Part shown: piece by piece, positions 1 to 14,998 of the stretch
Layout: the number at the start of each line of letters is the position of its first letter
Numbering within the stretch: position 1 is the stretch's first letter
From: Fibrobacter sp.
GTDB lineage: Bacteria; Fibrobacterota; Fibrobacteria; Fibrobacterales; Fibrobacteraceae
Direction: 5' to 3'
Assembly (NCBI GenBank): GCA_017550445.1
Contig: JAFZOV010000149.1
Span: forward strand, 1 to 30,645
Length of the DNA stretch: 30,645 bases
Program-made: the position numbers and the translations under genes
The notes under the pieces: generated by a model
What the model was told of the DNA's origin: nothing
The model's database searches: none
Seen by the model: the letters and a program-made list of their open reading frames with translations, nothing else

Positions 1-2
1 AA

Positions 3-86
3 AAGGATATCGACCGACTCGAAAAGGAACTCGCCGAAGTCCGCAAGCAGATGGCTCAGAAGCTGAAGGAGATAAAGAGAAAATAA
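3..86 (+). CDS. hsdM: C-terminal fragment, probably type I methyltransferase subunit HsdM
   Basis: The window opens inside a gene. The frame starting at base 3 reads 27 codons to a TAA at 84-86. The peptide is lysine- and glutamate-rich and looks like a coiled coil (IDRLEKELAEVRKQM). HsdM proteins usually end in such a helix, which packs against HsdS. The downstream hsdS and hsdR genes lie on the same strand, so the missing methyltransferase subunit is expected here. The catalytic domain (NPPF/Y motif) lies outside the window, so the name rests on context and the coiled-coil tail. Another gene ending in a coiled coil would look the same. Confidence 0.5.
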   Translation, partial: KDIDRLEKELAEVRKQMAQKLKEIKRK

Positions 87-154: not shown

Positions 155-1786
155 ATGCATTACGAAGAACTAGAACGCCTGATTTCAAAGGACGAAACGA
201 AAAATATCGAACTGAAGAAATCTACCGGAGAACTCCGGGAGGGCATGCACTCTGCGTGCGCCTTCTTGAACTCCGATGGCGGTATTCTAGTTTTTGGCGT
301 TACACCCTCGCTAAAAATCCTCGGGCAAATCGTTTCCGAATCGACCCGCCGCGATATCGCGCAAATGCTTGCAGGTATAGAACCTGCCGTTTCCCCAGTC
401 ATTGAATATGTTGACCTCCCGGACAAACCGAATTTACAAGTAATCGTGCTGAGGTTCAATCCGTGGGTCTATGGGCAAAAGCCTTATACATTCCATGGAA
501 AACCGTATTACAGGCTCGAAAGCATCACTAAGGCGATGCCAAGGGACATGTTTGAAGAAAGGCTTCGGCAGAATTTCCCACACCAGTTTTCATGGGAAAT
601 GCGTGTAGCGGATAAAATCACTATAGGCGATTTGGATGAAAAGAAAATTCACGGCTTGGTTCGTCTCGGAGTCGAAGAGCGAAGAATCTCAGAGGAATCA
701 CTTTCTGAACCAATCGAAGTTATTTTGGAAAAATGGGATTTGCTGGATAACGGCAAAGTGAGAAATGCAGCTGCGTTTCTGTTTTCTCGGAAAAAGCCGA
801 TTTTTTACGAGATTCGTCTAGCACGCTTTAGGGGAACGGACAAAAATTATTTTATCGACAATCAACAAGCGTTCGGAAATTTCTTTGAATTGTTGGATGC
901 TGGTATGGCATTCTTCTTCAAACATCTGTCCCTAAGTGGCGAAATCAAGGGAATAATGAGGGAAGAGCATCTCGACGTACCTGTCAAGGCCCTACGCGAG
1001 GCCTTAATCAACGCCTTGTGTCATAGAGATTACGACATTCATCAATGCTCTATTGGCATTGCCATATATGACGACCGCATTGAAATAGAAAGTCCGGGGC
1101 TGTTACCGCATCAATTGACTCCCAAAACCATCAAACGAGCACATAAGTCTTACCCACGAAACGAAGTCTTAGCAAACGTGCTGTATCAAACAACATATTT
1201 GGAAAAATGGGGCTCAGGGGTTAAGCGAATTATCGATGTCTGTAAGGAAGAGGGATCTCCAGAACCCTTCTGGACAGAAGAGGCCGGCTATACCGTGGTG
1301 ACGTTCCCGCTAGCTAGATTAAACGGCAGAATTGTCACCCAAAATGTCCCTCAACATGTCACTCAAAATGTCACCCAAAACGATAGTGACATACCTAGAA
1401 AACAAAAGGTAGAACACGTCATTTTGGTCAATTCCATGATATCGACAGATGCATTAGCAGCAATGTTTAGAGTGACGAAAAGAACTATTTTGCGCGATCT
1501 AAAAGACCTTGGATACGCCTGGGAAGGAGCTGCCAAAAACGGACATTGGAAAGCTCGAAATGTCACCCAAAATGTCACCCGAAATGTCACTCAAAATGAC
1601 GCTGGATTGTCTAGAGATCAAAAAGTGGAGCAGATTGTCTTAGTAGATTCAATGAAAACAAAAGAGTTTTTGGCAAAAATGTTTGGAGTAACTACTAGGA
1701 CTATTTTGCGTGACCTCAAAAAGTTGGGCTATGCTTGGGAAGGCGCGTCAAAAAATGGACATTGGGTGAAAAAGGATAAGGGGTAA
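155..1786 (+). CDS. AlbA_2 (Schlafen-like) ATP-binding protein with two C-terminal winged helices
   Basis: The 543-residue protein has an N-terminal AlbA_2/Schlafen AAA_4 domain at about residues 5-125 (ELKKSTGEL, LNSDGGILVFGV). A GHKL-type ATP-binding segment of the RecG-like HATPase_c_4 family follows around 280-370 (ALREALINALCHRDYD, LEKWGSGVKRI). The C-terminus is a tandem duplication. A linker of VTQN-type four-residue repeats plus a winged-helix unit (TKRTILRDLKDLGYAWEG, about 410-468) is repeated at about 469-543 (TTRTILRDLKKLGYAWEG). The family is usually annotated as a transcriptional regulator or ATP-dependent DNA-binding protein and often accompanies type I restriction loci. Its biochemical role is not established. 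The start ATG follows CAGGAAAATAA, an acceptable ribosome site. It may regulate the operon or be a defence accessory; both are inferences. Confidence 0.85.
   Translation: MHYEELERLISKDETKNIELKKSTGELREGMHSACAFLNSDGGILVFGVTPSLKILGQIVSESTRRDIAQMLAGIEPAVSPVIEYVDLPDKPNLQVIVLRFNPWVYGQKPYTFHGKPYYRLESITKAMPRDMFEERLRQNFPHQFSWEMRVADKITIGDLDEKKIHGLVRLGVEERRISEESLSEPIEVILEKWDLLDNGKVRNAAAFLFSRKKPIFYEIRLARFRGTDKNYFIDNQQAFGNFFELLDAGMAFFFKHLSLSGEIKGIMREEHLDVPVKALREALINALCHRDYDIHQCSIGIAIYDDRIEIESPGLLPHQLTPKTIKRAHKSYPRNEVLANVLYQTTYLEKWGSGVKRIIDVCKEEGSPEPFWTEEAGYTVVTFPLARLNGRIVTQNVPQHVTQNVTQNDSDIPRKQKVEHVILVNSMISTDALAAMFRVTKRTILRDLKDLGYAWEGAAKNGHWKARNVTQNVTRNVTQNDAGLSRDQKVEQIVLVDSMKTKEFLAKMFGVTTRTILRDLKKLGYAWEGASKNGHWVKKDKG
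1334..1381 (+). repeat. 12-nt tandem repeat, first block (4 units) in the AlbA_2 gene
   Basis: Four consecutive 12-mers start at 1334, 1346, 1358 and 1370: GTCACCCAAAAT, GTCCCTCAACAT, GTCACTCAAAAT and GTCACCCAAAAC. They encode the linker VTQN-VPQH-VTQN-VTQN before the first winged helix. Each unit is four codons, so gain or loss of a unit keeps the frame and changes only linker length. Confidence 0.9.
1562..1597 (+). repeat. 12-nt tandem repeat, second block (3 units) in the AlbA_2 gene
   Basis: Three 12-mers start at 1562, 1574 and 1586: GTCACCCAAAAT, GTCACCCGAAAT and GTCACTCAAAAT. They encode VTQN-VTRN-VTQN before the second winged helix. The block repeats the 1334-1381 block and marks the junction of a larger, roughly 75-residue duplication. 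Confidence 0.9.
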
Positions 1787-2138: not shown

Positions 2139-3281
2139 ATGGCTAAATCTGTATTTCACGCCTTTATTGATGAAAGTGGGGATCCGCATTTTTCAAATGG
2201 ATCTTCCGATACCTTTTTGATTTGTGCAACCCTAATTAATGAAAATAACATTTTAGAAATTACTGACAATCTAAAATCTTTACTCGCGGAGTATAAACTT
2301 CCTGAATTAAAATCCAGCAGGATGGGCGATGATAGAAAACGATTTGAAATTTTAAACCGTATATCCAAATGGAACGTCTCTATTGTAACGATTTTTGTAA
2401 AGAAAGAGGATTTCGATAAAACTGGGCAATGGTTCAAATATCATGGAACATTCTATAAATACATCGAAAGACTTCTTGTTTCGGAAGTTGTTAGAATATA
2501 CGGCAATGTTGATTTGACTTTTGATACATTTGGAAAAGCTGATTATCGTGAGTCTTTTGTAAAATACATTGAAAAAATTGTTGCGAAAAGTAGCCAGATA
2601 GACTTGTTTACGCCAGATATAGTAATGAGCTCTCCGAAGTCAGAAATTCTTGTCCAACTTTCGGATATTTTGGCAGGCTCAATTCGTAAATATTATGAAA
2701 ATAAATTAGACAATGTGAATAATATTTTGGAGCCTATTTGGAAAGGTTCGCTGATAGTTGGTGAACCCAATTGGATGAAAATGCTCAAGTCAGATATATC
2801 CAATGAAGATTCTCAAACAGATGAGGAACTTAAGCGTGTTGCATTAAATTCTGTGAATCTGTTTATTGAAGATAATAAACGAAAAGAAGACAGAGCCGTA
2901 GCATGTGAGACATTGGATTATCTGAAAGGAACCTTATTATATGATGACCCCAATAAGTACTGCTATAGAACTGAAATAAAAGATTGGTTGAATTATAGGG
3001 GATATAAAGATTATAGTGAAGAAAAGGTTAGCCGTGAAGTGATATCTTTATTACGTGAAGAAGGGGTGATGTTGGTGTCTTCATCAGAAGGAATAAAAAT
3101 TCCATCATCGGTGAAAGATGTAAAAGATCACTATGAATTTATTTTAGGTCAGGCTATACCATCTTTAAAACGACTAAAGAAGATGCATCAAGTCATATCG
3201 GCTAGATTGTCATCGGATGCAATTAGTTTCATTGATGGTGAAACAAATAGGCTTTTGAACGATTTAAGCGATTATAGGTAA
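2139..3281 (+). CDS. DUF3800 domain protein with C-terminal accessory domain
   Basis: The 380-residue protein carries the DUF3800 signature FIDESGDPHF at residues 9-18 (acidic D11, E12, D15) and a later conserved acidic site in QLSDILAGSIRKYYE (D176). DUF3800 is thought to adopt an RNase H-like fold and is frequent in defence islands; no reaction is established for it here. The C-terminal part (about 260-380) is not the core domain and contains a helix-rich, winged-helix-like stretch (SREVISLLREEGV). I chose the start at 2139 because GGAGGCGGAG sits directly upstream. A frame extension to 2079 would translate the upstream palindrome. It ends 3 nt before hsdS with AGGTAAGG as ribosome site, so the two are probably co-translated. 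The coding is strongly AT-rich. Confidence 0.85.
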   Translation: MAKSVFHAFIDESGDPHFSNGSSDTFLICATLINENNILEITDNLKSLLAEYKLPELKSSRMGDDRKRFEILNRISKWNVSIVTIFVKKEDFDKTGQWFKYHGTFYKYIERLLVSEVVRIYGNVDLTFDTFGKADYRESFVKYIEKIVAKSSQIDLFTPDIVMSSPKSEILVQLSDILAGSIRKYYENKLDNVNNILEPIWKGSLIVGEPNWMKMLKSDISNEDSQTDEELKRVALNSVNLFIEDNKRKEDRAVACETLDYLKGTLLYDDPNKYCYRTEIKDWLNYRGYKDYSEEKVSREVISLLREEGVMLVSSSEGIKIPSSVKDVKDHYEFILGQAIPSLKRLKKMHQVISARLSSDAISFIDGETNRLLNDLSDYR

Positions 3282-3284
3282 GGT

Positions 3285-4457
3285 ATGAAGGAATGGAAAA
3301 AAATAAAGTTAGGTGATGTTTTGACAGCCGTTGATTACGGAACGGCTTCAAAATCTGATGCTAATGGAAAATATCCCGTATTGAGAATGGGAAATCTTGA
3401 AAATGGGTATTTGGTATGGGATGACCTAGTTTACACTTCTTCAGAAGAAGAATATGCTAAATATGAGTTGAATAAAGGGGATATCCTTTTTAATCGGACG
3501 AATTCTCGCGATAAAGTTGGAAAAACATCTATTTATCGTGGTGAGCGACAAGCCATTTTTGCTGGTTATTTAGTTCGTTTGAAAGTTAATAAGGAATGCG
3601 ACCCTTTCTATATAAATTATTGTCTGAATTCGAAAGAATTTGCGGATTTTTGTAGGTCCGTGAGAACAGATGCTATTGGTCAATCAAATATTAATGCTCA
3701 GGTATTGCAAACGTACTCTTTTCTTTTGCCTCCGTTAGAAGAGCAAAAAAAAATTGCGGAGACGCTTTCTGTTTGGGATGATGCCATCGAAAAAACAGAA
3801 AAACTGATAGCGTTGAAAGAAACAGAATATCAAGCGAATGTAAGTGCTTTGATTTTTGAAAATAGGAAGTTTGCTCAAAAGTGTAAAATTGGGGATGTCC
3901 TAGAAATTCGAAATATTCGTGCGACTGCGACCGATGATAGACCATTATACTCGTTAACAATAGAAGATGGCGTTACCCCCAAGAGTGAACGATATGATCG
4001 ACTGGCTCTTGTGAAGGATAAGGATTCAAAAAAGTATAAAGTTGTTTGCGATGGAGATATTGTTTTTAATCCAGCGAATTTAAGGTGGGGAGCAATAGCT
4101 CGTGCAAATTTAGATAGGGACGTGGTTGTTTCTCCAATTTATGAAGTCCTTTATGTAAAGGGCAAAGAATTTGATGCCAAATATATATCGCAGTATCTGA
4201 CATCTGAAAAAATGATTTCTTATTATGCTACGAAGACAGAAGGAACCCTAATAGAACGGAAAGAGGTTAAATTAGACGCTTTCCTTCAAATTGATATATA
4301 TGTTGAGAAAAACATTGAAAACCAGATAAAAATTGCGGATATTTTAGATTCTGCTAAGAAGGAAATCAATCTTCTCAAACAGCAACTTGGAAATTACAAA
4401 AAACAGAAACAAGGCTTAATGCAAAAACTCCTCACCGGCCAATGGCGAGTAAAATAA
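3285..4457 (+). CDS. hsdS: Type I restriction-modification specificity subunit HsdS
   Basis: The 390-residue protein has the normal HsdS layout. A first target-recognition domain (about 1-145) is followed by a central conserved helix (LEEQKKIAETLSVWDD, from residue 151). A second recognition domain (about 195-345) is followed by a C-terminal helix (NQIKIADILDSAKKEI) and the typical ending QGLMQKLLTGQWRV. HsdS binds the bipartite DNA target and scaffolds HsdM and HsdR. The target cannot be read from sequence. A run of nine A residues at 3745-3753 encodes QKKI in the central helix and could slip. It follows the DUF3800 gene by 3 nt and is separated from its presumed hsdM by two cargo genes. Confidence 0.95.
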   Translation: MKEWKKIKLGDVLTAVDYGTASKSDANGKYPVLRMGNLENGYLVWDDLVYTSSEEEYAKYELNKGDILFNRTNSRDKVGKTSIYRGERQAIFAGYLVRLKVNKECDPFYINYCLNSKEFADFCRSVRTDAIGQSNINAQVLQTYSFLLPPLEEQKKIAETLSVWDDAIEKTEKLIALKETEYQANVSALIFENRKFAQKCKIGDVLEIRNIRATATDDRPLYSLTIEDGVTPKSERYDRLALVKDKDSKKYKVVCDGDIVFNPANLRWGAIARANLDRDVVVSPIYEVLYVKGKEFDAKYISQYLTSEKMISYYATKTEGTLIERKEVKLDAFLQIDIYVEKNIENQIKIADILDSAKKEINLLKQQLGNYKKQKQGLMQKLLTGQWRVK

Positions 4458-4469
4458 GGGATTATCTTT

Positions 4470-6449
4470 ATGGAAAACGAAGGTATAATCAGACAAATAA
4501 AAGACTATGCAAGACAGCAAAAGGAATGTCGCGATGTTATAAATAATTGGCTCTGCGTGATTTATGAGCCTAATAAGAATATCATTGCAGAATGGGTAAA
4601 GGAATGTAGACCAGATTTAAAAGATTGTGAAAAAGAAATAGATGGTCTAATTCATCGTTTAAAAAAATTATGCGATTTTTATGGCAATATAGAGTTTTAC
4701 GATTCTCAAATAGATGAACAATGCGAATGGTCTAGACGTTACTTGGATTTATTGTTTAATACAATAAGCCAGTATTCGTTATCTTCTTTATCGGGTAATT
4801 TTTATGATGCCGATCTTTATGCAAAAGCATTAAATAATGAAATTTTCCGACATGATTTTGTGAATATAACCCTTCGTTTGAGGGATGAAAGTATAAGCCT
4901 TGAAAACAATAATTTGGAAAAAGCTTTTGAACATCTGAAAAATTTTACGCTTTTTAAGTCCTTAAAACATAATGTTGTCATTGTTGGTGCGAACGGTTCG
5001 GGGAAAAGCTCTTTTTCTCGAAGAACTCGCGAAATCCTTGGTGGTAATGTCGTTGTTATCGCTTCGCAGAAGGTATTTTCATATAAAAAAGTAAATGCGT
5101 TCTCGTTAGACAGCCATTGTCGTCATAATCTTCAGCAGCTTCAACTTCAAGAAAAATTATATAAAAATGAAGATTTGAGTCGATGCTTAGAAGATTTACC
5201 AAGGGTTTTGGAAGCTCTTTTTGAAGAGAAAAATGAGCTTGCAAATCTACTATATGACGGCAAAATGCCTACACGAAAAGAATCAACTCTTGAACGAGTG
5301 ATGCAACTTTGGAATAAATTGTTGCAACATCGAGAATTACTTGTAAATGGTGGTGATATTCAAGTTGGAGATGAAAATGGTAGATTGTATTCATTCAATT
5401 CTTTAAGCGATGGTGAAAAAGCTGTTTTCTATTATATAGCTCACATTTTATTGGCTAAGGAAAATAGCTATGTCATTGTTGATGAACCGGAAAATCATTT
5501 ACACTTGGCTTTAGTTACGAAATTGTGGGATGCTTTAGAGCGGGCTAGGCCAGATTGTCAATTTATTTATCTAACGCATAATCTTGAATTTGCTGCTTCG
5601 CGTAATAATGTTGAAAAAATATGGATGAAGCGATTTGTCGCTCCTGACAAATGGGAAATGGAAAAACTCCCTACAGATGATGTATTGCCTGAAATCCTAT
5701 ATATGGAGCTTCTTGGAAGCCGTAAGCCGATATTATTCTGCGAAGGGAAAAAAGATAGCTTAGATTATAAGCTATACACAAGATTATTCCCAAATTATAC
5801 AGTAATTCCTGTTGAAGGACATCTTCATGTTATAAGTTATACAAAGGCTTTTAACAATTCTTATAATGTTCATCATAATAAAGCTATCGGCATTATTGAT
5901 GGTGACTTTCATAAGCAAGAACAAAAGGATGTATGGAAAAAAGACTCCATATACTCTCTGGATGTTCAGGAGATTGAAAATATCTTATGCGATGAAAATG
6001 TGCTGAAGTGCGCTATCAATTATTTCCATGCAGACCAGAGTGTTCTTGAAAAAGCAAAGGAAAAGTTGTTTATAGAGTTACAAAAGCATATAGACAACCA
6101 GTGCACTGAATATACTGTGCAGATGATAAATAACCGATTCAAAGAAAATATGCTTAAAAATTCTAAAGATTTGACCACTCTTAAGAATAGTGTAAAGGAA
6201 TTGGCAGATAAAATGCTTGAAAATGTTGACGCTTTTGTTGATGAAAGAAAAGAGTGCTTGCAAAGGATTATAGACGCAAATGACTTTGCAGAGGGTGTAA
6301 AAAGATACAACAACAAGAGTTTGATGGCGATTCTTACAACTGATATTGAAAAAGACTATAAAAATCGTGTGTTTAAAATGCTAGATGATAATCCTGATTT
6401 GTTGGAGACCCTTAGAAATAAGTATTTCGCAGATGTTCCTCAAGGATGA
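4470..6449 (+). CDS. AAA ATPase fused to DUF4435 TOPRIM-like domain, PARIS (AriA-AriB)-like
   Basis: The 659-residue protein has two halves. An ABC/SMC-type ATPase carries Walker A GANGSGKSS (173-181), an ABC-signature-like SDGEK (313-317) and Walker B YVIVDEPENHLH (334-345). The second half (from about 420) is a DUF4435 domain with TOPRIM hallmarks: ILFCEGKKD (E425) and IGIIDGDF (D477, D479), then LDVQEIENIL near 500. In the PARIS anti-phage system, AriA is the ATPase and AriB the DUF4435 effector, and single-gene fusions are known. PARIS is triggered by phage anti-restriction proteins such as Ocr, and AriB is a toxic nuclease. Order, length and motifs fit a fusion. OLD-like or other ATP-TOPRIM nucleases are the alternative. 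It follows hsdS by 12 nt. The catalytic acidic residues look intact. Confidence 0.75.
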   Translation: MENEGIIRQIKDYARQQKECRDVINNWLCVIYEPNKNIIAEWVKECRPDLKDCEKEIDGLIHRLKKLCDFYGNIEFYDSQIDEQCEWSRRYLDLLFNTISQYSLSSLSGNFYDADLYAKALNNEIFRHDFVNITLRLRDESISLENNNLEKAFEHLKNFTLFKSLKHNVVIVGANGSGKSSFSRRTREILGGNVVVIASQKVFSYKKVNAFSLDSHCRHNLQQLQLQEKLYKNEDLSRCLEDLPRVLEALFEEKNELANLLYDGKMPTRKESTLERVMQLWNKLLQHRELLVNGGDIQVGDENGRLYSFNSLSDGEKAVFYYIAHILLAKENSYVIVDEPENHLHLALVTKLWDALERARPDCQFIYLTHNLEFAASRNNVEKIWMKRFVAPDKWEMEKLPTDDVLPEILYMELLGSRKPILFCEGKKDSLDYKLYTRLFPNYTVIPVEGHLHVISYTKAFNNSYNVHHNKAIGIIDGDFHKQEQKDVWKKDSIYSLDVQEIENILCDENVLKCAINYFHADQSVLEKAKEKLFIELQKHIDNQCTEYTVQMINNRFKENMLKNSKDLTTLKNSVKELADKMLENVDAFVDERKECLQRIIDANDFAEGVKRYNNKSLMAILTTDIEKDYKNRVFKMLDDNPDLLETLRNKYFADVPQG

Positions 6450-6485
6450 AGGAATATTTGAATGATGTTTGAGAATAATGTTTAT

Positions 6486-6521
6486 GGCAGATTATTTGAC
6501 GGATAAAGTGGCGGATTAAAA
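6486..6521 (+). repeat. 12-nt repeat block, three degenerate units
   Basis: Units GGCAGATTATTT, GACGGATAAAGT and GGCGGATTAAAA start at 6486, 6498 and 6510. One frame reads MADY-LTDK-VAD and then a stop, a four-residue pattern like the linkers of AlbA_2 proteins but no longer open. Confidence 0.55.
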
Positions 6522-6556
6522 TGCTTATAGTTAATGAAATGTTTTTGGTGAAAAAA

Positions 6557-6581
6557 TGGAAGTCGCAATTTGCGACATCCA
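6557..6581. repeat. Palindrome 4 of the GTCRCAATTTGYGAC family
   Basis: TGGAAGTCGCAA and TTGCGACATCCA surround a central T, with a single A-A mismatch in 12 bp. An AAAAAA tract precedes it, as in the 2012-2036 copy. It lies about 225 nt upstream of hsdR and is the only copy outside the first gap. Confidence 0.8.
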
Positions 6582-6592
6582 AATTTGCACAT

Positions 6593-6640
6593 GTCCCTGT
6601 AAATGCCCCTCTAAACGGCACATTAAATGGCATATTAAAA
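6593..6640 (+). repeat. 12-nt repeat block, four units
   Basis: Units GTCCCTGTAAAT, GCCCCTCTAAAC, GGCACATTAAAT and GGCATATTAAAA lie head to tail from 6593. In frame they would read VPVN-APLN-GTLN-GILK, the same x-P/T-x-N pattern as the AlbA_2 linker. Confidence 0.75.
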
Positions 6641-6684
6641 AAAGAAAATCCGCATAATAGCGGGCATAATAGTGGAAAAAGAAA

Positions 6685-6726
6685 TTTAATGTGCCATTGC
6701 AATGGCGGATTAAGTGGCACATTAAA
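6685..6726 (+). repeat. Stem-loop with 12-bp perfect arms and nested palindrome
   Basis: TTTAATGTGCCA (6685-6696) pairs perfectly with TGGCACATTAAA (6715-6726) across 18 nt. The palindrome CCATTGCAATGG (6694-6705) overlaps the left arm, so the two structures exclude each other. The right arm is part of the 12-nt repeat, so the left arm may be an inverted copy of a unit. It lies 80 nt upstream of hsdR. Confidence 0.65.
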
Positions 6727-6787
6727 CGGCACATTAAATGTCCCTAAAAATGTCCTTTTAAGAGTCCCTTTTGATGTCCCTTTAAAA
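6704..6787 (+). repeat. 12-nt repeat block, seven units
   Basis: Seven head-to-tail units start at 6704: GGCGGATTAAGT, GGCACATTAAAC, GGCACATTAAAT, GTCCCTAAAAAT, GTCCTTTTAAGA, GTCCCTTTTGAT and GTCCCTTTAAAA. They drift from GGCACATTAAAN to GTCCCTTTNAAN along the array. In frame they read GLSG-TLNG-TLNV-PKNV and on to the stop at 6800-6802. Confidence 0.8.
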
Positions 6788-6805
6788 TTTGCATCGAGGT
6801 AACTC

Positions 6806-9800
6806 ATGAGCAATGAACAGCCTGATTACAGAGAAATTCCGACATCGCAGATTCCGGCGATGCGGCTTTTGGCGAATCTCGGTTTCAAGCCGCTTACGCC
6901 CGAAGAGGTTCTTTTGCAGCGCAAAGGCGTATCAACGAATGTGTTGCTTGAAGACATCTTGCTTTCGCAGTTGCGCAAGTTGAATTCCTTTACGCACAAG
7001 GGCGTCAAGCGCGACTTTAGCGAAGAAAAGTTGCGCAATGCGGTGCTGAAACTCAAGAACATGCAGTACGACGGCTTGGTGCGCACGAACCTCAAGATTT
7101 ACGAGTTGCTCACGCTGCCGCAATCCGAAGAGGAATCGGTCGAGGGCGACCGCAAAAGTTATGATATCCGCTATATCGACTGGCAAAACCCCGAGAACAA
7201 TGTTTACCATGCTGTTGCCGAATTTGAGGTGGAACGGTCCAAGTCAACAAAGACCTGTATTCCCGATATTGTGCTGTTTGTAAACGGAATCCCTTTTGCC
7301 GTTATCGAGAACAAGTCGCCGGAAGAGGGTGTAAAGCAGGGAATCTCGCAGATGATTCGCAATCAGGGCGACGAATATATCCCTGGGTTGTTTGTTTTTT
7401 GTCAGAGCGTGCTTTCGGTAAGCATGAATGCGGCAACTTATGCGACTGTGGGGACTCCCGGAAAATACTGGAGCCTTTGGCACGAACTAGAAATTAAGGA
7501 TTCCGAAATTGTCTCGGCGGTGAATAAGAAGGTTTCTGCAGAAGACGAAGACCGTATTTTCTCGGTGCCGAAATTCAAGCCATTCCGCAAAGATAATCCA
7601 CAAACCAAGCGTGAGGTGACGGAACAGGACAGGCTTATTTATTGCCTGTGCAAACCGACGCGACTGCTCGAAATGGCGTATCGTTTTACGCTGTTCGATG
7701 AAGGCAAAAAAAAGATTGCGCGCTACCAGCAGTTCTTCGTGGTTCGTTCCGCGCTGAAACGCATTAGGAATGTCAATAAAGAAGGCAAGCGCAAGGGCGG
7801 GCTTGTGTGGCATACGCAGGGCTCGGGCAAGTCCCTTTCGATGGTCATGCTCGCTCATGGTATAGCGCTAGATGCCAAATATGACGCCGATTGTAATATC
7901 AAAGAGCCGCGTATTCTTTTGGTGACCGACCGCAAAGATTTGGATAAACAAATTCGTGATACATTTAAAAATTGCGGTGTAGAAGTTGTTAAAGCGACTT
8001 CGGGTGAAAATTTATTGACGCGTTTGGAATCAGATTCCTCTGCAGTAATAACAACTGTTATCAACAAGTTTGATAAAGCCCTAAATAAACGTCAATATGT
8101 TAATCAGTCAAACAACATTTTTTTACTAGTAGATGAAGCGCACCGCACGCAGTACAAAAACCTCCGCGCCCGTATGGAACAGATGCTTCCGAAAGCCTGT
8201 TATATCGGCTTTACGGGTACGCCTCTGATGAAAAAAGAGAAGAACAGTTTCAGCAAGTTTGGAGGAATGCTTACTCCGCAATATACGATTCGCCAAGCTG
8301 TGGAAGATGGTGCCGTTGTGCCGCTGCTTTACGAGGGGCGCCATGCCGAAATCAAGCAGGACAAGGCTGCGGTAGATTTGTGGTTTGACCGCTTTACAGC
8401 AGGACTATCGGATAAGCAAAAGGCTGACTTGAAAAAGAAATATGCTCGCGCCGAAATGCTCAACAAGGCGGAACAGGTCGTGTTTATGCGAGCCTTTGAC
8501 ATTAGCGAACATTTCCGTGCGAACTGGCAAGGAACTCCGTTCAAAGCCCAGCTTGTAGCGCCAAGTAAAGAGACCGCCATCCAATATCACGAAATTCTAG
8601 ACGAGATTGGTTTTGTGAGTTCCGAAGTCATCATTTCTGGCCCAGACGAAAGAGAGGGCTATTCCGAGGTGGATGAAGAACCAACCGACCGCGTGACAAA
8701 ATTCTGGAAGAAGATGATGGATCAGTATGGGGATGAAGAAACCTACAATAATTCCATTATCGGCAAATTTAAGTCTGCTAGCAATCCTGAAATCTTGATT
8801 GTTTGCGACAAGTTGCTTACGGGTTTTGATGCCGAGCGGAATACAGTTCTGTATCTTTGCCGCACCCTCAAAGAGCATACACTGTTGCAAGCGATTGCCC
8901 GAGTAAACCGATTGTTCGAAGAAGATGGCAAGAAGAAAGACTTTGGCTATATCGTAGACTACGCAAACGTACGTGAAAATTTGGACACGGCACTTGTAAT
9001 GTACCAAGCTCTTGAAGGATTCAATCCTGCGGATTTGGAAGGGATGCTCACAGATATGTCGGAGCAGATTGATAAACTTCCGCAGTTGCGTTCCGCAGTG
9101 TGGGACGTATTCCGGGGAGTGAAGAATAAGGCGGATCCCGAGCAAATGGAACGCCACCTTGCCAATGAAGAGCTCCGTAATAACTTTTACAAGGCTTTGC
9201 GTGATTTCGGCAAATGCTTGAGTATTGCGCTTTCATCACAGAAGTTCCTGGAGCAAACGCCCGCAGGTGATGTTACCAAACTTCGCAGAGAATTTAAAAT
9301 GTTGTCTGATATGCGGACTTCGGTAAAACACCGCTATGCCGACGATGTGGACTACAGTGAGTATGAACCAAGAATCAAGAAACTACTTGATACGCATATC
9401 CATTCGGCTTCTGTAACGCAAACAGTCGCCCCCATAGATATTTTGGGGAAGGGTTTTAGTACGCATTTGCACGATGACCAAGTCGCATATGACGGAAGAG
9501 GCAAAGCTGCTAGTGCCGATTCTATCGCCCATGCGCTTAAGAAAACCACAATTGAAAAGATGGAAGAAGATCCTGCCTTTTACGAAAAATTCTCTAAAAT
9601 GATTCAGGATGTCATTGATCAATTCCGTGCAGGCAAAATAAATGATGATGAGTACGCAAAGAAAGTCGGAGAATTGAAAGAAAAATTCCATAATAAAAAG
9701 CGTGACGATGTGCCAGAACAGATTCGTGAAAATGAAGATGCTGCGGCTTACTATGGCGTTGCTTTAACAGCCTTTATGTATGGTAATAAATGTGATGCCG

Positions 9801-10036
9801 CTCGTGCTAGGCGACTTGCTGTAAAGACTGCTTTATTTGTCTGCGAATCATTTGAGAAACATTATAAAGTTCAATTCTGGAACGATACAGATGCCCAAAA
9901 TAGGGTGCGCGATGAATTGGATAATCTTTTCTTCGACGAAATCCAGGTGCGGGAGGAATTCGGTTGGTCCAACGAAAATATTGATTCGCTTGAAAATAAA
10001 ATCATGGATATAGCGAGGCACCGTTCCCATGAATGA
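6806..10036 (+). CDS. hsdR: Type I restriction endonuclease subunit HsdR
   Basis: The 1076-residue protein is the ATP-dependent translocase and nuclease of the type I system. The N-terminal PD-(D/E)xK nuclease is visible as PDIVLFVNGIPFAVIENK (D154, E168, K170). Superfamily 2 helicase motifs follow: Walker A HTQGSGKSLS (K342), DEAH box VDEAHRTQY (443-446), motif III FTGTPL, and motif VI AIARVNRLFEE. The C-terminal third is the helical region that docks on the methyltransferase core. Length is normal for the family. The start has GAGG 7 nt upstream. Its end overlaps the next gene by 8 nt. Codon composition changes along the gene, with an AT-rich patch at about 7940-8130, which could reflect recombination. 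Confidence 0.97.
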   Translation: MSNEQPDYREIPTSQIPAMRLLANLGFKPLTPEEVLLQRKGVSTNVLLEDILLSQLRKLNSFTHKGVKRDFSEEKLRNAVLKLKNMQYDGLVRTNLKIYELLTLPQSEEESVEGDRKSYDIRYIDWQNPENNVYHAVAEFEVERSKSTKTCIPDIVLFVNGIPFAVIENKSPEEGVKQGISQMIRNQGDEYIPGLFVFCQSVLSVSMNAATYATVGTPGKYWSLWHELEIKDSEIVSAVNKKVSAEDEDRIFSVPKFKPFRKDNPQTKREVTEQDRLIYCLCKPTRLLEMAYRFTLFDEGKKKIARYQQFFVVRSALKRIRNVNKEGKRKGGLVWHTQGSGKSLSMVMLAHGIALDAKYDADCNIKEPRILLVTDRKDLDKQIRDTFKNCGVEVVKATSGENLLTRLESDSSAVITTVINKFDKALNKRQYVNQSNNIFLLVDEAHRTQYKNLRARMEQMLPKACYIGFTGTPLMKKEKNSFSKFGGMLTPQYTIRQAVEDGAVVPLLYEGRHAEIKQDKAAVDLWFDRFTAGLSDKQKADLKKKYARAEMLNKAEQVVFMRAFDISEHFRANWQGTPFKAQLVAPSKETAIQYHEILDEIGFVSSEVIISGPDEREGYSEVDEEPTDRVTKFWKKMMDQYGDEETYNNSIIGKFKSASNPEILIVCDKLLTGFDAERNTVLYLCRTLKEHTLLQAIARVNRLFEEDGKKKDFGYIVDYANVRENLDTALVMYQALEGFNPADLEGMLTDMSEQIDKLPQLRSAVWDVFRGVKNKADPEQMERHLANEELRNNFYKALRDFGKCLSIALSSQKFLEQTPAGDVTKLRREFKMLSDMRTSVKHRYADDVDYSEYEPRIKKLLDTHIHSASVTQTVAPIDILGKGFSTHLHDDQVAYDGRGKAASADSIAHALKKTTIEKMEEDPAFYEKFSKMIQDVIDQFRAGKINDDEYAKKVGELKEKFHNKKRDDVPEQIRENEDAAAYYGVALTAFMYGNKCDAARARRLAVKTALFVCESFEKHYKVQFWNDTDAQNRVRDELDNLFFDEIQVREEFGWSNENIDSLENKIMDIARHRSHE

Positions 10037-10730
10037 AGCGAGAACCATAAAGTATGGCGAACGCGAAATCCCTTATACCGTGATTTTCCGTAAACGAGAA
10101 ACTCTTGAAATCTCGGTGTTACCTGATTTATCCGTTGAAGTGGTCGCTCCTGAAAACGCCTCTATGCCTGCTATCGAACAAAGAGTGCAGAGAAAGGCTC
10201 CATGGATTGTTGAGAAACAGAACTGGTTTGCAAAATTCCCTAAAGCTCCTCCTCCAAAGCAATATTTGGGTGGAGAAACACACCTGTATATGGGCCGCCG
10301 CTATCGACTGAAAATCGAAAAAAACGAATGTTACGAAATAAAAATTGATGGCGGATTTATTCGCATTTTGACGAAAGATTTGCACCCAGCATCAGTAAAG
10401 AAAATATTGGACGAATGGTTCCGTGCCAAGGCAACGTTGCAGTTCAAAAAAATATTCGATGATTGCGTTAAGAAATATGCAAAATCGAATGCCCCGCGTC
10501 TGCAAATCCGCAATATGAAAACCCGCTGGGGTTCGCTATCGAAAAATGGCATTTTGACCCTAAACACAAAACTCATCGCTGCACCAAGGGAATGTATTGA
10601 ATATGTGGTAGTGCATGAATTGTGCCACCTAAAACACGCAAATCACGATAACAGATTTTATCGATTGCTAGAAACCCGTATGTCCGATTGGCAACGCCGC
10701 AAACAAAAGCTTGAAAATATGCAGATATAA
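10029..10730 (+). CDS. YgjP/DUF45 family zinc metallopeptidase-like protein
   Basis: The 233-residue protein has the gluzincin-type motif HELCHLKHANH: H196, E197 and H200, with H206 as likely third ligand. The segment KTRWGSLSKNGILTLN just before it is typical of the YgjP (DUF45, M48-related) family. A substrate is not known. These proteins are often encoded directly after hsdR, and here the start codon lies inside the last codons of hsdR (8-nt overlap), so translation is coupled. It may process or turn over the restriction complex, but that is only an idea from context. It is the last gene of the defence operon; no clear terminator follows. Confidence 0.9.
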   Translation: MNEARTIKYGEREIPYTVIFRKRETLEISVLPDLSVEVVAPENASMPAIEQRVQRKAPWIVEKQNWFAKFPKAPPPKQYLGGETHLYMGRRYRLKIEKNECYEIKIDGGFIRILTKDLHPASVKKILDEWFRAKATLQFKKIFDDCVKKYAKSNAPRLQIRNMKTRWGSLSKNGILTLNTKLIAAPRECIEYVVVHELCHLKHANHDNRFYRLLETRMSDWQRRKQKLENMQI

Positions 10731-11852: not shown

Positions 11853-13136
11853 TTAAGACGCTTTCTTGCGGCTCTTCTTGGCAGATTCAGACTTCTTCTC
11901 CGAAGGAGCCTGCAAGCCGCTCTTCACAATTTCTGCAGTCACCACAAACTGCTTATTGCCAGAACCCGGCATTTCGAACATGGCCTTCTGCAAGGTCTTT
12001 TCCATCACGGAACGGAGGCCACGGGCACCTGTCTTGCGGGCCATGGTTTCGTGGACAATTTCCTTGAGGGCGTCATCTTCGAACTTCAGCTCGATACCGT
12101 CCATTTCGAACAGGCTCTTGTACTGCTTCACAAGAGCATTCTTCGGCTGAGTCAAAATATTCAGGAGAGCCGCTTCGTCGAGCTCCTCGAGAGCCACGGC
12201 GACGGGCAAACGGCCCACAATTTCGGGAATCAAGCCGAACTGGATCAAGTCATCGGGTTCCAGGAGCTTGAAAAGTTCTGTCAGGGAATTTTCTTCGGCA
12301 CTGCGGATATCGGCGCCGAAGCCCATGCCGCCCGTATTCACGCGGCGGGAAATAATCTTGTCGAGCGTTTCGAAGGCGCCACCGCAAATGAACAGGATGT
12401 TCTTGGTGTTCACCTGCACCAGCGGCTGTTCGGGGTGCTTACGGCCACCTTTCGGCGGCACTGCGGCAACCGTACCTTCCAAAAGCTTCATAAGACCCTG
12501 CTGCACGCCTTCGCCGCTCACGTCGCGAGTGATGGAGGGGTTGGCGGTCTTACGGGCAATTTTATCAATTTCGTCGATAAAGATGATACCGCGTTCGGCG
12601 CGGGCCACATCGTAGTCAGCAGCCTGCAACAGGCGCACAATGATGCTGTCCACGTCTTCGCCCACGTAACCGGCTTCGGTCAGCACGGTAGCATCGGCAA
12701 TGGTAAAGGGCACATCCAGGAATCGCGCCATCGTCTGGGCGAGAAGAGTCTTGCCCGAACCAGTGGGACCCACCAACAGCAAGTTCGACTTTTCGACTTC
12801 TTGCGCATCGGGGTGAGCCTGCTTGTAACGCAAGCGCTTGTAATGGTTGTACACCGCCACAGAAAGGGCGGTCTTTGCCTGGTCCTGACCGATCACGTAT
12901 TCGTCCAGGTGGGCCTTGATTTCGGTAGGTAGCGGGAGCGGCTTGGAAGAAGCCTCGGCAGCGGCAGATTCCTGCCTTGCGCGGGCACGGTCTTCTTCGA
13001 TAATGCGGTGACACATGGCAACGCAGTCGCTACAAATCTGAACGCCTGCGCCCGTAATCATCTTCTCGACGCGTTCTGCGGGCTTGCCGCAAAAACTGCA
13101 AACCACAGTCGGGTGATTTTTCCCGCTACGATACAT
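11853..13136 (-). CDS. clpX: ATP-dependent Clp protease ATP-binding subunit ClpX
   Basis: The 427-residue AAA+ unfoldase recognises tagged substrates and threads them into ClpP. The N-terminal zinc domain has four cysteines at 13, 16, 35 and 38 (CSFCGK, ICSDC). Walker A is GPTGSGKT (123-130) and Walker B is [10 protein letters not shown], followed by the pore and sensor motifs typical of the family. The ClpP-docking loop reads GMGFGA where E. coli has GIGFGA. Length is normal. A lysine- and serine-rich tail ([13 protein letters not shown]) extends the C-terminus. The ATG shares one base with the clpP stop (TAATG), with GAGGGA upstream, so translation is coupled. Confidence 0.98.
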
Positions 13137-13726
13137 TAAATTCCCTCTTTACGCGGAACAAAGATTTCGTCGATAACGCCGAAGGCCTTTGCTTCTTCGG
13201 GGCCCATATAGAAATCGCGGTCGGTCTTTTCGCGGACTTCGTCAATCGACTTGCCCGTATGCTTGGCGACGATTTCGGCCAAGGTTTCCTTGGTGCGTAC
13301 GATTTCTTTTGCGGTAATCTGGATATCGGTAGACTGACCGGTAGCAGCACCCGACGGCTGGTGAAGCATGATGCGGGAATGCGGGAGCGCATAACGCTTG
13401 CCCTTGGTACCTGCCGCAAGCAGCACCGCAGCCATCGAGGCGCAGTTACCAATGCAGATGGTCGCGATATTCGGGCGAACATGCTGCATGGTGTCATAAA
13501 TGGCAAGCCCTGCCGAAACATAACCACCCGGGCTGTTGATGTACAGCGTGATATCCTTTTCCGGATTCTCGTATTCAAGGAAAATCAGCTGGGCCATGAC
13601 GTTGTTCGCCACTTCGTCGTTAATCGGCGTGCCCAGGAAGATAATGCGTTCCTTGAGGAGACGGGAGTAGATATCGTAGGCGCGTTCACCGCGTCCGGTG
13701 GTCTCAATGACGGTAGGGATGATCAT
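13136..13726 (-). CDS. clpP: ATP-dependent Clp protease proteolytic subunit ClpP
   Basis: This 196-residue serine peptidase assembles as a 14-mer barrel and degrades proteins delivered by ClpX. The catalytic triad is intact: S97 in GNCASMAA, H122 in IMLHQPSG and D171 in TDRDF, at the same numbers as in mature E. coli ClpP. The N-terminus ([20 protein letters not shown]) starts directly at the mature-like sequence, so there is little or no propeptide. The gene lies 12 nt after tig, preceded by AAGAGG, and overlaps clpX by one base. Confidence 0.98.
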
Positions 13727-13738
13727 TCAATTTACCTC

Positions 13739-14998
13739 TTACTTGTTTTCTTCAGCAGTCGGGCGGATACCGACGATGAAGTCGGCAGCCATCTGAACGC
13801 GGAGTTCGTCACGGAGCTGGTTGATACGGCCGGACTGACGGAAGTGGCCCTTGAGGGTTTCGAAGTCCACATGGTAGGCGGCAGCCATCTGCTTCAGGCG
13901 TTCGTCGACGTTGGCCTGAGACGGCTTAATCTTTTCCTTGGTGGCGATGAAGTCGAGAATGCGGTGCTTCTTGATTTCGCGGATAGCTTCCGGAGTAAGG
14001 CCGTTGAGCTGTTCTTCGGTCGGTTCCACCACATCCTTTTCGCTCTGGGCGTTGCGGTTCAGGGTCCACTTGATGAGGTCGTACACGCGAGCCTTCGGCA
14101 CTTCGAACGGGTTGGCTTCGATAATCTTGTCGATAGCTTCGTTAATGGCCTTGTTCTTGGCAGCGTCCTGCTTCTGGCTAGCGAGACCTTCGGCGAGATT
14201 GCTCTTCAATTCTTCAACATCCTTCACGCCAATCTGCTTGCAGAATTCTTCGTCCATGGTCGGCGGAACAATGGCGCGCACGTCGGTGACTTCCACCTTG
14301 AACTGAGCGGTCTTGCCGCGATAGCGTTCGTCCTTGTGGTCATCCGGATACTTGAAGTTGATTTCCTTGGTTTCGCCGGCAGATGCACCAGTGAGGCCTT
14401 CGTCGAATCCCGGAGAAGCGGACTGGCCGAGGAGGCTACGGAATTCCTTGTTTTCGGGGAGTTCCTGCTTTTCGCCGTCGATAATCACTTCGAGGTAGTT
14501 ACCCACGACCACGTCGCCCTTGGCGGCAGCACGGTCCACATGTTCGTCCTTGCTCCACATCTGGATCAAACGGTCATATTCTTCCTTGACTTCTTCTTCG
14601 TGGACAGCGGTTTCCGGAACGGTAACGCCCGTGTCGGCATAGCCCTTGATATTGATTTCAGGATCCATTTCGACTTCCACCTTAAGTGCGATGTCGTTTT
14701 CCTTGTCGTCCTTGAAATCTACGACCTTCATCTGGCCAACGGGGATGATATTTGCGTTCTTGAGAGCTTCCTGAACCAGCTTGTTGACAACTTCGTCCAC
14801 GGCTTCCTGACGGATAGCGCCGCCGAACTGCTTCAGGATCATTGCCTTCGGCACCATGCCCTGGCGGAAACCCTTCATGGAGACCTGCTTCTTGTACTGG
14901 CCCAGCTTCTTTTCGAAGGGAGCAGTGAGGTCTGCCTGCGGGATGGTGATTTCGAGGGTGCGCACGGTTGCGCTTGTTTCTTTGATTTCTACGCTCAT
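13739..14998 (-). CDS. tig: Trigger factor, ribosome-associated chaperone
   Basis: The 419-residue protein binds the ribosome exit tunnel and shields nascent chains. The ribosome-binding signature GFRQGMVP lies at residues 43-50, the same place as in E. coli. A peptidyl-prolyl isomerase domain spans roughly 155-245 (NYLEVIIDGE, GFDEGLTG, YRGKTAQFKVEV). The rest is the long helical substrate-binding domain. GGAG lies just before the ATG. The upstream tRNA-Leu is 39 nt away on the same strand and may share its promoter. Confidence 0.97.
   Translation of the reverse strand: MSVEIKETSATVRTLEITIPQADLTAPFEKKLGQYKKQVSMKGFRQGMVPKAMILKQFGGAIRQEAVDEVVNKLVQEALKNANIIPVGQMKVVDFKDDKENDIALKVEVEMDPEINIKGYADTGVTVPETAVHEEEVKEEYDRLIQMWSKDEHVDRAAAKGDVVVGNYLEVIIDGEKQELPENKEFRSLLGQSASPGFDEGLTGASAGETKEINFKYPDDHKDERYRGKTAQFKVEVTDVRAIVPPTMDEEFCKQIGVKDVEELKSNLAEGLASQKQDAAKNKAINEAIDKIIEANPFEVPKARVYDLIKWTLNRNAQSEKDVVEPTEEQLNGLTPEAIREIKKHRILDFIATKEKIKPSQANVDERLKQMAAAYHVDFETLKGHFRQSGRINQLRDELRVQMAADFIVGIRPTAEENK

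Follow-up and report, generated by a model that had tools for sequence, protein, structure and literature searches.

A single-chain PARIS-family protein as probable exchangeable cargo between hsdS and hsdR of a Fibrobacter type I restriction operon

In the EcoprrI locus of E. coli the genes run hsdM-hsdS-prrC-hsdR, and PrrC is kept latent through EcoprrI and triggered by the anti-restriction peptide Stp (PMC3014915, PMC12707154; here and below, statements about published systems follow excerpts of the cited papers). The RRDM island of enteropathogenic E. coli (EPEC) carries DarTG2 between hsdS and hsdR, with an M48 peptidase gene downstream (PMC12255303), and type I loci of C. jejuni carry rlo genes as inserts (PMC2610378). 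PARIS, which in E. coli consists of the two proteins AriA and AriB, was described together with a fused form in its founding paper, where the two forms jointly occur in 5.2% of genomes (PMC9122126, Rousset 2022); the fused form was mentioned again in 2025 (PMC12409363). E. coli AriB and PrrC have the same target, tRNA-Lys (PMC3014915, PMC12707154). PARIS modules in BREX loci have been described, and OLD-type ATPases coupled to nucleases in restriction-modification-like systems were reported earlier (PMC12839542). Here we describe a fused PARIS gene, AriAB, located in the hsdS-hsdR interval of a type I restriction operon in a 30,645-nucleotide stretch of Fibrobacter sp. DNA (contig JAFZOV010000149.1, hereafter ‘the window’).

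The original prediction for this gene, made from the letters of the window, held that PARIS reports usually concern satellite and prophage hotspots. This needs qualifying, as a PARIS has also been published from a site other than a satellite, namely a BREX locus of Salmonella (PMC11341690). That case and the window have in common a PARIS embedded in a modification-based defence locus; there the host locus is BREX, the PARIS has two genes and, according to the excerpt, no trigger was found. Our literature search, conducted largely outside subscription journals, found no report of PARIS between hsdS and hsdR, which is no proof of absence.

The AriAB gene runs from ATG to TGA at positions 4470..6449 on the plus strand and encodes 659 amino acids, comprising a helical N-terminal domain (residues 1–158), an OLD/ABC-type ATPase (approximately 160–400) and a DUF4435/AriB-type TOPRIM nuclease (approximately 411–659). 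The motifs and acidic residues that had been predicted for a single ATPase-DUF4435 chain are all found at their predicted positions and are conserved in relatives: GANGSGKSS (173–181), SDGEK (313–317), IVDEPENHLH (336–345) and, as read from the translation, the TOPRIM-type acids E425, D477 and D479. The Walker A, signature, Walker B and H-loop elements of the ATPase are all intact. E425, D477, D479, K179, S313 and E339 are invariant in an alignment of close relatives (29 rows); in a wider set, comprising the window protein and 51 relatives, D477, D479, E501, S313, E339 and H370 are kept in 52 of 52, E425 in 51 and K179 in 51 with one gap.

The protein had been called PARIS-like, and profile searches make this more exact. 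The PADLOC AriAB profile is the best match to the whole protein (E 5.7e-123, far beyond chance), with residues 164–640 corresponding to positions 43–549 of the 570-position profile; Pfam identifies AAA_21 (2.9e-16) and DUF4435 (4e-17; 63.2 bits against a cut-off of 27). When the two halves were compared separately with AriA, AriB and OLD-type profiles, neither proved nearer to OLD or Gabija. AriAB is still the top PADLOC profile for residues 1–410 alone (5.9e-67), and residues 411–659 alone match (PADLOC, E <= 0.01) only AriAB models (1.8e-51 and 5.3e-10) and AriB (1.2e-15), with no GajA or OLD profile among them. The four Pfam matches of this C-terminal half up to E 1 include DUF4435 above its cut-off and no PrrC-type anticodon nuclease family. 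Judged by these sequence matches, the window protein belongs to PARIS in its fused AriAB form; that form is already described, and the family itself is not new.

The fused AriAB family of PADLOC (PDLC02982), which is the best profile by far, has the same ATPase and DUF4435 in one gene and intact ATPase and TOPRIM residues; the window protein differs from it in an additional stretch of ∼160 N-terminal residues and in its place in a type I operon. These residues, all helical in the structural model, lie outside the match to the AriAB profile and are absent from short family members. With E. coli PARIS (8ux9, 8v46) the window protein shares an AriB-like nuclease fold and an ATPase core that is AriA-like, if equally PtuA-like, but it is one chain rather than two proteins. 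Residues 9–444 of E. coli AriA correspond only to residues 155–391 of the window protein (199 aligned), leaving ∼200 AriA residues without a counterpart, and the N-terminal helical domain of long-form fused PARIS is present where part of AriA is missing.

The gene upstream is hsdS (3285..4457, plus strand, 390 amino acids), as indicated by Methylase_S (1.4e-23), PADLOC Specificity_I (1.3e-83) and the comparison of junctions; its conserved 3′ end encodes KQKQGLMQKLLTGQWRVK. The predicted distance of 12 nucleotides from the hsdS stop to the AriAB start is correct, as is the location upstream of hsdR (6806..10036, plus strand, 1076 amino acids; TIGR00348 at 2.4e-128, 429.5 bits with a cut-off of 284.55; PADLOC REase_I 8.2e-187), but hsdR does not adjoin AriAB. 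The two are separated by 356 nucleotides (6450..6805, plus strand) that hold 12-nucleotide repeats and a 93-codon open reading frame (ORF; 6521–6802) consisting of low-complexity repeats, for which no Pfam, PADLOC or NCBIfam match was found; this ORF and spacer are possibly the relic of an earlier cargo gene. No terminator-like site was seen on the plus strand of the window from hsdS to the end of hsdR, and promoter-like sites occur at chance level. AriAB is presumably co-transcribed with the hsd genes.

To place the locus among its relatives, the window HsdR was searched against 167 genomes of the phylum of a related Fibrobacter locus (L001), and all 22 regions with matches at E <= 1e-100 were read. 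A readable hsdS-hsdR junction is present in 18 of them, the remaining four (L141, L142, L151 and L152) ending at a contig edge. The junction holds AriAB in 4 of the 18 (once with a Bro-N gene), other genes in 11 and nothing in 3, and the cargo of the 15 occupied junctions is of at least seven kinds. In addition to AriAB we found AlbA-type genes, alone or with unknown genes (4), YhcG (2, one with RhuM), ATPase-methyltransferase fusions (2, one with AlbA), RhuM (1), DUF3800 (1) and an ATPase with a 181-amino-acid protein (1). The survey of related type I loci that had been proposed with the prediction thus found AriAB in several of them.

Comparison of these junctions with that of the window defines a cargo slot from the hsdS stop to the hsdR start (4458..6805, plus strand). 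In blastn alignments the flanks shared with L135 extend to position 4460 and resume at 6816, and those shared with L138 extend to 4460 and resume at 6701; flank identity therefore ends near the hsdS stop codon and returns around the hsdR start. The HsdR of L091, an AriAB locus, is 98.2% identical to that of L146, which carries an ATPase-methyltransferase gene and AlbA, 98.0% identical to that of L148, in which the junction is empty, and 91.8% identical to that of L147, which carries RhuM. The reverse case is that of L001 and L091, whose AriABs share 89.3% identity and whose HsdRs share 40.4%. Because HsdRs of ∼98% identity differ in their cargo, and AriABs of 89% identity adjoin HsdRs of 40% identity, AriAB is exchangeable cargo, and these comparisons provide direct evidence that cargo is exchanged at one fixed site, the hsdS-hsdR gap. 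The 3′ end of hsdS appears to travel with the cargo: in the window group it encodes the ending QWRVK, as it does in L091 and L146, and in L147 and L148 it encodes a different one.

The occupation of one gap between similar hsd genes by different genes is as described for the RRDM island and EcoprrI. The RRDM island also resembles the Fibrobacterota operons in the metallopeptidase gene after hsdR and in the presence of other genes in the slot of other genomes, but its cargo is a toxin-antitoxin pair and it has an RptR regulator gene upstream (PMC12255303), where the Fibrobacterota operons have a short hsdS-like gene before hsdM. That gene (∼200 amino acids) lies directly 5′ of hsdM in all 16 loci in which hsdM is seen, one copy being cut at an edge (L001 1513–2133, L002 2197–2787, L092 599–1219); the L001 copy has a weak Methylase_S match (1.4e-4), and the product could serve as a regulator or correspond to half of a specificity subunit.

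Relatives of AriAB were collected more widely by a first genome scan, which was seeded with two conserved words and in which many matches are metagenome bins, and by a protein search that scored the 7993 candidates sharing most words, of which the best 120 of 983 matches are considered here. The genome scan gave 64 loci, 42 of them strong (L001–L042, E <= 2e-33); the 22 weak ones (L043–L064), mostly matches to the ATPase part, were left unclassified in the count of hsd linkage. With seeds included, the protein is found in 5 of 167 genomes of the Fibrobacter phylum (E <= 1e-20) and, at E <= 1e-30, in 13 of 397, 1 of 398 and 6 of 392 genomes of the phyla of Helicobacter didelphidarum, a Selenomonadaceae locus and Treponema, respectively. 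A protein 69% identical to that of the window (P0024), among the matches listed, is recorded as Candidatus Saccharibacteria, which could reflect transfer or mis-binning.

We examined 61 loci and dropped three as short (L042, L102, L103). Among the 58 relatives that were left, 16 are linked to hsd genes, 26 have no hsd gene within a context of at least 4 kb on both sides, 15 lie at a contig edge and 1 is unclear. The linked share is 16 of 42 scoreable loci, a fraction that is raised because contig-edge loci were set apart only when no hsd gene was seen, or 16 of 58 when all are counted; divergent hsd genes may have been missed among the 26, since the hsd profiles were built from the loci themselves, and the set contains near-copies (L009/L010, L026/L108 and two groups within L094–L100). 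In the linked loci AriAB lies between hsdS and hsdR six times (L001, L002, L008, L018, L091, L092), between hsdM and hsdS four times (L023, L025, L028, L040), after hsdS twice (L019, L039) and beside or near hsd genes four times (L007, L017, L101, L107). As a rough yardstick, 80 N6_Mtase matches of at least 100 bits in 41 genomes (∼118 million bases, summed from rounded sizes) correspond to a chance of ∼1% per 12-kb stretch, which is too easy a control because defence genes cluster.

In a phylogenetic tree the window protein groups with four loci of the Fibrobacter phylum at 100/100 support, and all five rows of this clade, the window included, are hsd-linked. Its sister group consists of three Treponema proteins, none of which has an hsd gene nearby, and the hsd label changes 11 times over the tree, 10 of the changes being forced by well-supported branches. 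The suggestion that the arrangement marks a distinct lineage is, in that form, not supported by this result, and an hsd-specific AriAB lineage was rejected, linkage being scattered over the tree of the fused family. When the labels were shuffled the mean was 15.0 changes, and 3 of 500 shuffles were as low as 11, a figure to which near-copies contribute. Four loci lie in viral contigs, two of them strong (L108, L109), and the proteins of L108 and of Clostridium ljungdahlii (L026) are identical; there are two phage records, both of Oenococcus phage phi9805, and 53 plasmid records. All of these are under 60% identity to the window protein, and a phage or plasmid origin for it was rejected on that ground. 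Mobile carriage exists in the wider family, with nothing close to the window protein seen there.

Considering the family of both halves by profile, the intact catalytic residues, the operon position and the replacement of cargo between near-identical hsd genes, we regard it as probable that the window holds a single-chain PARIS-family AriAB that occupies, as exchangeable cargo, the hsdS-hsdR gap of a type I operon. The protein family is known, and so is the position, from other effectors; the evidence of cargo exchange in these operons is clear. A well-studied anti-anti-restriction system here shares an operon with the very enzyme that is the target of anti-restriction proteins, at the position that PrrC made famous. 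Near-identical HsdRs with and without AriAB, and near-identical AriABs beside very different HsdRs, are natural experiments through which the question of whether guards need their guarded enzyme becomes directly testable. In such an operon the ATPase half would switch on the nuclease half upon sensing either a phage product or that restriction has been lost, the nuclease may cut tRNA as E. coli AriB does, and the infected cell would stop growing; through the hsd link, restriction would be backed by a further defence that moves together with it. In the fused form the nuclease stays tethered to its sensor, which raises the question of its activation. Because ATPase and nuclease are one chain, simple release, as of AriB by AriA in the two-protein system, is impossible, and most likely the protein would rearrange so that its nuclease domains become free to pair. 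With ∼200 residues of AriA absent from the ATPase core and a helical domain added at the N terminus, the protein may well respond to a trigger other than that of E. coli PARIS.

Several observations weigh against this interpretation. The structural comparison proposed with the prediction turned out as expected for the nuclease half, for which AriB ranks before OLD and GajA in fold, but the ATPase core aligns as closely with PtuA as with AriA. The best 50 Foldseek matches of the whole model include PtuA and GajA and do not include AriA; neither AriA nor AriB is in the Foldseek lists of the best 50, although a second structural aligner did pick both up, and no chain of either is among the PDB matches listed for the whole protein, its profile or the profile of its C-terminal half. 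Finally, hsd linkage alone fails to indicate a PARIS-specific guard, because the hsdS-hsdR position is a general cargo slot. The presence of PrrC and DarTG2 at the same position in E. coli makes it plausible, by analogy, that AriAB guards the restriction enzyme; this is a good hypothesis, not a result.

Two other explanations concern the meaning of the hsd link and are compatible with the family assignment, such that their likelihoods and that of the reading above need not add up to certainty. The stronger is that the gap is a recombination-tolerant landing site in which AriAB, a stand-alone system, gains operon expression and has no functional tie to restriction. In line with such a neutral passenger, the slot is empty in some operons and otherwise occupied by genes of unrelated kinds, and scoreable relatives without hsd genes (26) outnumber those with them (16); yet linkage appears repeatedly over the tree and clusters more strongly than in the shuffles (with the contribution of near-copies noted above), a same-strand hsd gene lies within 200 nucleotides in 13 of the 58 relatives, and E. 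coli PARIS responds to an anti-restriction protein (PMC9122126). We consider this explanation a real possibility, if one we are inclined to doubt.

A closer parallel to PrrC, in which AriAB docks on HsdRMS, is held inactive there and is set free once the complex is perturbed by an anti-restriction protein, seems to us unlikely. AriAB has the gene position of prrC and, in one chain, the same layout of an ABC-type ATPase followed by an RNase (predicted, for AriAB); PrrC is kept latent by EcoprrI (PMC3014915), and the window clade is hsd-linked throughout. However, the nuclease half is DUF4435 and not the PrrC/RloC nuclease, and the mismatch between AriAB and HsdR identities, together with the sister Treponema proteins that lack a nearby hsd gene, implies no fixed Hsd partner. 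A further difference between the two proteins is that PrrC is reported to be invariably linked to type Ic restriction-modification (PMC2610378) and AriAB is not so linked. An OLD/Gabija/Septu-type DNA nuclease in place of PARIS, to which the PtuA-like fold of the ATPase core and the Foldseek matches would speak, was rejected and is very improbable, given that the best GajA profile reaches 6.1e-10 on the whole protein against 5.7e-123 for AriAB, that profiles and the fold of the nuclease half point to AriAB/AriB, and that neither a GajB-like helicase nor a PtuB-like HNH gene was seen among eight scanned neighbour ORFs (those with a family match are Hsd, DUF3800, AlbA_2, YgjP and a weak BatD).

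A bolder extension of the cargo reading, to which we give little credence at present, would make the hsdS-hsdR gap a dedicated guard slot into which unrelated suicide effectors are recruited as all read the state of the same restriction complex. Its members would be fused PARIS here, PrrC and DarTG2 in E. coli and perhaps the ATPase-methyltransferase fusions, and the N-terminal helical domain of long-form fused PARIS would read the Hsd complex or its inhibitor. Near-identical HsdRs with and without AriAB, and near-identical AriABs beside very different HsdRs, are natural experiments through which the question of whether guards need their guarded enzyme becomes directly testable.

The fusions just mentioned (L138 12336–14216; L146 4783–6675, minus strand) join, by Pfam, an OLD/AAA_21-type ATPase to a methyltransferase domain in the hsdS-hsdR gap. 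Their top PADLOC match is AriA, at just 3.9e-22 and 1.1e-18, respectively, and they are possibly an undescribed effector. Four further cargo proteins of the gap have no Pfam match at E 0.001 (L137 4405–5667 and 6539–7297, both minus strand; L139 12860–13690; L150 4080–4622, minus strand); the first matches the PADLOC candidate PDC-M34B (4.2e-9) and the other three have no PADLOC match, and all are candidate new defence genes.

A second variable stretch lies between hsdM and hsdS, where AlbA_2, KAP ATPase, helicase, DUF3800 and Bro-N genes were found. A 677-amino-acid protein followed by one of 331 or 332 amino acids recurs there (L135 6350–9375; L136 4152–7180; and, in turned orientation, L146 5416–8441 and L091 444–3472); the 677-amino-acid protein of L135, the one copy scanned with Pfam, is a helicase-phosphoribosyltransferase. 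The window itself begins within hsdM, of which the 3′ end occupies 1..86 on the plus strand (last 28 codons at 3–86, stop included), as indicated by translation and by 93.5% identity over 77 nucleotides to the hsdM end of L001, whose hsdM was placed through N6_Mtase matches. It is followed by a gene for an AlbA_2/Schlafen and HATPase_c_4 protein (155..1786, plus strand; Pfam 2.2e-16 and 8.9e-25), homologues of which lie directly after hsdM in L002, L092, L137 and L138, by an ORF of 118 amino acids without a match, and by a DUF3800 gene (2151..3281, plus strand, the listed ORF starting at 2079; Pfam 5.2e-12), a homologue of which immediately precedes hsdS in L001 and L135. The 3′ part of the AlbA_2 gene contains two 208-nucleotide direct repeats that are 71% alike (1342–1549 and 1558–1765), with units that resemble the 12-nucleotide units of the spacer before hsdR. 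In the region of the 118-amino-acid ORF a 32-nucleotide element occurs twice (1946–2045) with the palindrome GAGGTCAC and a 12-pair stem at 1946–1972, and is possibly the site of a regulator.

Downstream, and overlapping the end of hsdR, lies a gene for a YgjP-like metallopeptidase (10029..10730, plus strand; Pfam YgjP-like 3.5e-58). Proteolysis by YgjP was considered as a means of freeing the nuclease and rejected: a YgjP homologue lies 3′ of hsdR in 22 of 22 compared loci whatever the cargo, and nothing therefore ties it to AriAB. Just past the operon are genes for clpX, clpP and trigger factor (11853–14998, minus strand); the HsdR of EcoKI is degraded by ClpXP (PMC12255303).
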